Of a DNA stretch of 41,851 nucleotides, positions 24,405 through 24,910 are shown piece by piece; the first letter of the stretch is position 1; each line of letters opens with the position of its first letter. The notes under the pieces were generated by a model that did no database searches, was not told the DNA's origin, and worked only from the letters and a program-made list of their open reading frames with translations. Origin of the DNA: Bacteroidales bacterium (GTDB lineage: Bacteria > Bacteroidota > Bacteroidia > Bacteroidales > UBA1556); contig JAFGWF010000102.1 of assembly GCA_016937295.1 (NCBI GenBank), forward strand, positions 1 to 41,851. Reading direction: 5' to 3'. Made by a program: the position numbers and the translations under genes.

Positions 24405-24460
24405 AATCTGCTAAAAATTAATTCATTTAATATTTCGTATTATCCCCGAAAATGGGGCTG

Positions 24461-24468
24461 CAAAAGTA
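24461..24468 (-). promoter_or_regulatory. Proximal promoter -7 box of the ribosomal run (P2)
   Basis: On the minus strand TACTTTTG matches TAnnTTTG and is followed by CAGCC and a CCCC-loop-GGGG hairpin (24444-24457) at the likely transcript start. No good TTG box is found 17-23 bases upstream. The leader to rpsL would be about 50 bases. The 13 bases 24456-24468 are identical to 24715-24727 at the distal promoter. Confidence 0.55.
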
Positions 24469-24606
24469 TCTTATTACGGCTCAGGTTTGATGAAAACTTT
24501 TCTACAATTGCGAAAAATCTTTAATCAAACTCTTAACAGTTTAATATTCAATAATTTAAATGGAAAAAAGTTTAAGGAAGGATTTATTATCTAAATCTTC
24601 AAACCT

Positions 24607-24705
24607 TAAGTGCTCTACACTTACGAAACCTATAACGGCTTGACCTTATCAGGTTCCTTATTCTATTTTCGTTTAACGTTCACAAAACCAAACTATAATA
24701 GTTTG
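24607..24705 (-). promoter_or_regulatory. Structured 5' leader of the distal rpsL transcript
   Basis: Three hairpins lie between the two promoters. The first is a perfect seven-base stem with a three-base loop at 24689-24705. The second is a roughly 13-pair hairpin at 24625-24657 (outer stem 24625-24631 with 24651-24657 including one G-U pair, inner stems ATAA/TTAT and GG/CC, loop of five, one bulge per arm). The third is a perfect six-base stem with a five-base loop at 24607-24623. None is followed by a T-run, so they are not plain terminators. No open frame beginning with ATG is present. It may be a regulatory leader; no known family is recognised. Confidence 0.45.
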
Positions 24706-24719
24706 AAAAATTGCGGCTG

Positions 24720-24750
24720 CAAAAGTAGAAATATTTTTTTAATCTCCAAA
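24720..24750 (-). promoter_or_regulatory. Distal promoter of the ribosomal run (P1)
   Basis: On the minus strand TTTG (24747-24750), 19 bases, then TACTTTTG (24720-24727): a full match to the Bacteroidota consensus, followed by a GC-rich CAGCCGC. The transcript would carry a leader of about 310 bases before rpsL. Confidence 0.8.
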
Positions 24751-24808
24751 TTAAATTTCAATTAAATAAAATATTTTTTTTAAACTCCTTTAAAATCGTG
24801 ATTTAATG

Positions 24809-24827: not shown

Positions 24828-24900
24828 GCGGTAATAGCTCAGGTGGTAGAGCATTAGCTTCCCAAGCTGAGGGTCGCGGGTTCGAGTCCCGTTTACCGCT
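24828..24900 (+). tRNA. tRNA-Gly (anticodon CCC)
   Basis: A 73-base cloverleaf. The acceptor stem is GCGGTAA with TTACCGC (seven perfect pairs). The D stem is GCTC/GAGC. The anticodon stem TTAGC/GCTGA encloses the loop TTCCCAA with anticodon CCC. A five-base variable loop follows, then the T stem GCGGG/CCCGT around TTCGAGT. The discriminator is T, as in bacterial tRNA-Gly. CCA is not encoded, so it must be added enzymatically. It reads GGG codons. Confidence 0.96.
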
Positions 24901-24910
24901 CAACTTTAAC

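Follow-up and report, generated by a model that had tools for sequence, protein, structure and literature searches.

Evidence for a conserved, pseudoknotted leader RNA ahead of rpsL in Bacteroidales

Comparison across Bacteroidales genomes leaves us almost certain that the region ahead of rpsL, the gene of ribosomal protein S12, encodes a real, conserved and pseudoknotted leader RNA. We studied it in a stretch of 41,851 nt, hereafter the window, from a Bacteroidales bacterium (UBA1556; assembly GCA_016937295.1, contig JAFGWF010000102.1). With less assurance, we consider it probable from the sequence comparison that this RNA is a new Bacteroidales ribosomal-protein leader whose ligand and mechanism are those proposed below. 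A Bacteroidota-specific leader RNA had been suggested for this place in a first-pass annotation of the window, and both the conserved position of the element and its covarying pairs strongly support that suggestion.

Genomic setting and fold of the element

The ribosomal run of the window is headed by rpsL, and translation gives the gene order S12, S7, EF-G, S10, L3 and L4 (rpsL, rpsG, fusA, rpsJ, rplC and rplD). Upstream of rpsL lie two promoter-like sites, a distal one (P1) and a proximal one (P2), which we take to be of the Bacteroidota type with -33 and -7 boxes; their positions and those of all the elements described below are collected in Table 1. A tRNA-Gly (CCC) gene is found at 24828-24901 on the plus strand, divergent from P1. 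The coordinates of the P1 box and of rpsL imply a leader of about 310 nt for the P1 transcript, the same length as claimed in the first-pass annotation; a transcript started at P2 would be an mRNA without the leader RNA.

Table 1. Coordinates of the leader RNA, its pairing strands and the neighbouring features in the window
Feature	Position	Strand	Sequence or basis
Distal promoter P1	24750-24720	minus	TTTG 24750-24747, N19, TACTTTTG 24727-24720
5'-terminal hairpin of P1 transcript	24715-24681	minus	folding; core is the stem 24689-24705
Whole conserved leader RNA	24670-24563	minus	between P1 and P2; homologs and R1 match
Closing helix, 5' strand	24670-24656	minus	P0 GAAAA 24670-24666; P1h TAAGG 24660-24656
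Hairpin P2h	24655-24627	minus	AACCU 24655-24651 / AGGUU 24631-24627
Pseudoknot, 5' strand	24643-24637	minus	UCAAGCC, in P2h loop
Variable hairpin P3	24623-24607	minus	third stem of the first-pass annotation
Pseudoknot, 3' strand	24605-24599	minus	GGUUUGA, one base past P3; pairs with 24643-24637
Closing helix, 3' strand	24577-24563	minus	CCUUA 24577-24573; UUUUC 24567-24563; contains most of the T run
Proximal promoter P2 and 5' hairpin	24468-24444	minus	TACTTTTG 24468-24461; CCCC/GGGG 24457-24444
rpsL (S12)	24404-24024	minus	translation; heads the ribosomal run

The same arrangement recurs among the 73 homologs linked to rpsL. In 69 of them the leader is preceded, at a distance of no more than 150 nt, by a TAnn(n)TTTGC box, and in 47 such a box (P2-like) lies between the leader and rpsL. 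Thus, some species would produce leader-bearing mRNA alone and others also a leader-free mRNA. The distance between the end of the model match and rpsL has a median of 172 nt in the presence of a P2-like box versus 86 nt without it. The starts of both predicted transcripts tend to fold better than shuffled sequences: the interval from P1 to the leader, which includes a 5'-terminal hairpin differing in sequence among species, has a mean z of -1.41 (n = 68 homologs; p < 0.05 singly in 19), and the first 30 nt after the P2-like boxes have a mean z of -1.23 (n = 47; nine singly at p < 0.05).

Folding of the window sequence recovered all three stems described earlier (24689-24705, 24625-24657 and 24607-24623). 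Compared with dinucleotide shuffles, 324 nt of the leader region gave a z of -2.95, with none of 100 shuffles as good, and 116 nt gave a z of -2.71, with 2 of 200 shuffles as good. The middle stem had been presented as a hairpin of 13 pairs. Its outer part is indeed conserved, namely AACCU/AGGUU plus two flanking pairs, but the inner pairs compete with a pseudoknot that is absent from the earlier description: the P2h loop, which carries the conserved boxes GAYAA, AGAC-like and UAU, can pair with a strand just past P3, and this pairing excludes the inner pairs of the hairpin. The remark that no terminator T-run is present likewise needs amending, since a T run does occur at 24569-24564; however, comparison places it in the 3' strand of the GAAAA/UUUUC closing helix, and it does not constitute a terminator tail.

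Comparative evidence for the base pairs

The comparison with related genomes that had been named as the check on these stems was carried out, and the element came through it with both conservation and covariation. Across species, the closing helix consists of GAAAA/UUUUC together with NAAGG/CCUUN-like pairs of variable sequence. The P2h helix is nearly invariant and, therefore, says little alone; it covaries in divergent members only, which carry GACCU/AGGUC (L094) or AGCCU/AGGCU (L222 and G157). As to the pseudoknot, we found the versions AGAC/GUCU, AAGC/GUUU, AAAC/GUUU, AGGU/ACCU, AGGC/GCCU and AAAAC/GUUUU.

In MAFFT alignments of the natural sequences the variable hairpin ended up in the wrong place, so we used instead a fitted alignment of 37 condensed, N-padded rows (A3). 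This alignment omits L126 and L149, which had no clean placement, L132 and L146, a duplicate or near-duplicate each, and L127 and L140; furthermore, the leader stretch of L042 is that of L125, and the leader of L041 is that of G004. In A3, 94.7% of the cells pair and double changes occur in 17 of the 22 pairs, a result reached by none of 500 shuffles, although these statistics are partly circular because the positions of P1h, P3 and the pseudoknot were picked by pairing. This applies also to P3, in which all five counted pairs vary, with double changes. The outermost closing pair fails to form in 17 of the 37 rows; for the outer pseudoknot pairs the corresponding numbers are 5 and 9.

Two tests escape this circularity, and they carry our conclusion. 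The first is a pairing-blind one on the pseudoknot: in 30 independent sequences that were not used in training, the 3' strand was set by a sequence profile together with P3. We counted 150 of 180 possible pairs, as against 138.8 (sd 2.6) when strands were swapped between sequences, and none of 2000 swaps was as high. Taken pair by pair, the outermost alone is significant, while the other five range from p 0.05 to 1.0 because the letters of the core hardly vary. A few strands were misplaced by the profile (for instance that of L199, as judged by eye); such errors make the test harder to pass.

The second, a swap test on 61 independent sequences, training ones included, compared the best partner in a sequence's own downstream region with that in the downstream region of other species. 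The closing helix scored 19.42 with its own partner versus 16.64 with swapped ones, and the pseudoknot 16.36 versus 15.25; in neither case were any of 300 swaps as high, whereas the reversed-strand controls gave 45 of 300 for the closing helix and 50 of 300 for the pseudoknot. Finally, shuffle tests of the pseudoknot in each sequence are weak singly (p < 0.05 in 6 of 30) and combine to a Fisher p of 1.9e-4.

These sequences hint at a second pseudoknot strand: UUNUC, located immediately ahead of the closing helix, may be a partner of the GANAA box in the P2h loop. Examples are GAUAA/UUAUC, GACAA/UUGUC and GAGAA/UUCUC (L184, L205, L130, L139 and L125). The GANAA/UUNUC pairing reaches p < 0.05 in 5 of 39 sequences; for GACAA with UGUC or UUGU the Fisher p is 0.002, each single-motif test giving 0.09. 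We regard this second strand as suggestive only.

Distribution and relation to known leaders

Within the genus of the window, rpsL was found in 10 of 11 genomes, and all ten carry the element upstream of it, between P1-like and P2-like boxes. These copies read GGAACCTGAYAA..., AGGTTYC, a hairpin of variable sequence and, last, a strand that can pair with the first hairpin's loop; the stretches of G003 and G006 are identical. In the order, a pattern for the first hairpin (P2h) was present in 65 of 393 genomes, as compared with 2 genomes for the reversed-pattern control. Thirty pattern loci were read: 28 are upstream of rpsL and two (L127 and L140) are chance matches.

The order was also searched with R1, a covariance model of the leader from which the pseudoknot pairs were left out. 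R1 finds the window copy, which is part of its training set, at 24667-24572 with an E of 2e-8, and gives 79 matches in 77 of the 393 order genomes. For seventy-three of these, rpsL follows in the same orientation after a gap of 39-276 nt, counted from where the match ends, and one lies upstream of rpsJ (genome G044). The remaining matches, L209, L220, L225, L226 and L227, are low-scoring (25-33 bits), lie elsewhere in their genomes and were judged false. By our judgement, then, 74 genomes are true carriers, and they represent 30 of about 120 sampled families. The training set consisted partly of loci picked near rpsL; among the 46 matches outside the model alignment, 40 adjoin rpsL and one adjoins rpsJ. 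Since the genome searches used strict filters, the carrier counts are lower bounds.

A search of 395 genomes of the class matched three further genomes besides the window's own, which were judged false because none of the listed ORFs of 90 codons or more in the 3 kb read encodes S12. The element occurs in six of 80 named rpsL loci (L094 at an E of 0.005 only), all from uncultured lineages labelled Bacteroidales, Bacteroidia or Bacteroidetes; it is absent, or beyond detection, in the other 74 and in most of the order, with 74 carriers in 393 genomes. Judged by eye, three Bacteroidales loci without the element (L049, L055 and L077) seem to have a different stretch in common in their rpsL 5' UTR, in the vicinity of GTTTTTGA and of GGTCAG or AGTCAG; it may be a further type of leader.

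At gathering thresholds, Rfam 15 (4227 families) matched only a tRNA in the window and no family in 20 homologous loci, and a permissive scan of the leader region returned five matches, all with E > 2; the element would add a structured RNA family that has no match in Rfam 15. It shows two traits of ribosomal-protein leaders as set out in the available text of PMC7247131, in that it lies upstream of ribosomal-protein genes (74 of 79 matches) and has a secondary structure supported by covariation. The best reading is that of a new leader within a known kind, the rpsL leader, for which no relation to a known family was found.

The closest parallel in position is the rpsL motif of 'Candidatus' Pelagibacter ubique, a structured RNA heading 22 fused ribosomal genes, whose partner protein is not known (PMC2704228, in the portion available). 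Both RNAs immediately precede rpsL and head a fused ribosomal run, which in Pelagibacter is homologous to the str, S10 and spc operons. On the other hand, the Pelagibacter motif is portrayed there as a three-stem junction reached through a bulged stem, with no pseudoknot mentioned, and is confined to Pelagibacter and marine metagenomes; the two were compared through these descriptions. This parallel between different folds suggests that fused ribosomal operons may independently gain a single leader at their head. Attenuating leaders before rpsL have also been described (PMC2965389, in the part available); they are diverse and unrelated between lineages, and they carry intrinsic terminators, whereas none is enriched with the Bacteroidales element. 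The main text of that paper contains no word with the stem 'bacteroid'.

In Bacteroidia, the L13 and S4 leaders of PMC7247131 are similar in being lineage-specific 5' UTR RNAs with covariation support, but as far as the available text tells they belong to other genes (the rplM and rpsD groups) and the S4 leader is a hairpin; none of the 20 new leaders in Table 1 of that source precedes rpsL, rpsG or rpsJ in Bacteroidota. The accessible part of PMC2864571 reports Bacteroidales motifs, none tied to rpsL, and PMC8040213, also seen in excerpt, reports other candidate leaders in human microbiomes, with tables that may hold this element. In the literature searched, to the extent that its text was available, rpsL or str leaders are known in other phyla and none was found in Bacteroidota.

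Candidate ligand and mode of control

Judged from the sequences, autoregulation by a ribosomal protein would be the natural reading of such an element. The leader would act in cis from the start of the P1 transcript in the fused str-S10 operon of Bacteroidales. Comparison shows one compact fold (closing helix, P2h, P3 and pseudoknot), maintained by compensatory changes and placed consistently in the interval from the promoter-like box to rpsL. One of the operon's own ribosomal proteins, when in excess over rRNA, would bind the pseudoknotted fold and lower expression of the P1 transcript, whereas P2 transcripts, where present, would escape this control. According to the portion of PMC10931766 available, Bacteroidota start translation without Shine-Dalgarno pairing, which makes the way they balance ribosomal proteins against rRNA a separate question; a conserved pseudoknotted element in 30 of about 120 sampled families makes this question directly testable.

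As for the step that is controlled, a hairpin followed by a T run occurs between leader and rpsL in 3 of 73 homologs versus 2.3 expected, and no intrinsic terminator inside the leader itself was noted by eye. Transcription attenuation is thus unsupported, and control of translation start or of mRNA decay would be likelier than intrinsic termination. As a point against this reading, the leader match ends 88-276 nt before the start codon where P2 exists, a long distance for a direct block of the start site.

Position cannot reveal the ligand, because most operons look fused: of the 73 genomes searched, 63 have rpsJ and the leader on one contig, 6 have them on separate contigs and 4 gave no rpsJ, and the distance from the leader down to rpsJ is 3.1-3.4 kb in the five genomes measured. 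The hint that we have comes from one genome, G044 (L222/L240), in which rpsJ-rplC is preceded by a leader that has P1-like and P2-like boxes of its own, while no homolog of rpsL, rpsG or fusA (S12, S7 and EF-G) occurs in the 14 kb read. This arrangement argues against S12 or S7 and in favour of a ligand whose gene is rpsJ or lies beyond it. A search of the G044 assembly did not find rpsL; a second leader copy before rpsL is therefore possible in this organism. In a relative, G157 (L241), the operon is fused and a variant leader precedes rpsL (recognised by eye; R1 E 2.3), and in G250 (L242/L243), of the same genus as G044, the operon is split and the leader was seen before neither the rpsL nor the rpsJ part. 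Within this one genus, str and S10 operons are thus fused in one genome (G157) and apart in two (G044 and G250).

On this ground the ligand would more likely be a protein encoded from rpsJ onward than S12 or S7, and L4 would be the first candidate. In E. coli, the S10 operon is regulated by L4 acting on a structured 5' UTR (PMC10931766, available part). That leader is long, structured and placed before the S10 genes, a placement directly before rpsJ that the Bacteroidales element has in G044 only; it differs in having a termination site, none being enriched here, and in that nearly all copies of the Bacteroidales element precede rpsL, with rpsJ some 3 kb further downstream in the genomes measured. 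More tentatively, and with considerable doubt on our part, a single protein from S10 onward, encoded about 3 kb or more downstream, could report a shortage of rRNA to the first gene of the operon, with the P2h loop switching between internal pairing and pairing with downstream sequence through one or two pseudoknot strands (AGAC/GUCU and GANAA/UUNUC). If this is true, a single pseudoknotted RNA would set the output of a large share of the ribosomal-protein supply.

Alternatively, the leader could bind S12 or S7, as the first-pass annotation had supposed. The element adjoins rpsL in 73 of the 74 matches judged real, S7 is known to repress the str operon of E. coli, which shares the cluster rpsL, rpsG and fusA (PMC10931766, in the text available), and S7 has been considered as a partner of the diverse rpsL leaders (PMC2965389, likewise in part). 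However, the E. coli S7 site is intercistronic, between rpsL and rpsG, outside the leader, and resembles the S7 site of 16S rRNA; in Bacteroidales, S7 would instead have to work from in front of rpsL. Sequence patterns revealed no mimic of rRNA in the 16S of G001 and G013 nor in about two-thirds of the 23S model in G013. Imitation of the rRNA site is a frequent but not obligatory trait of ribosomal-protein leaders (PMC7247131); within this scope, the lack of 16S similarity would speak against S12 and S7, and the lack of any mimic counts against the main reading as well. We consider S12 or S7 unlikely, the arrangement in one genome, G044, also disfavouring them.

Equally improbable in our view is an element for stability or ribosome loading, in which a 5' hairpin and the pseudoknot would shield the long mRNA from decay. 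The better-than-shuffled folding of both transcript starts and the lack of terminator enrichment after the leader are consistent with it, but such a function would not need a pseudoknot whose loop letters GAYAA, AGAC and UAU are kept in 30 families.

The ribosomal protein S10 is also NusE. A role in processive antitermination along this very long operon, possibly by recruitment of Nus factors, would fit the location at the operon's 5' end and the position of the G044 leader immediately ahead of the S10 gene; yet P2 transcripts would lack the element in 47 of 73 genomes, and we give this explanation very little weight. Chance, functionless stems in an AT-rich intergenic region would agree with single-sequence folding whose advantage over shuffles is only moderate (z about -2.7 to -3), but conservation and coevolution in 30 families leave this with a negligible probability.
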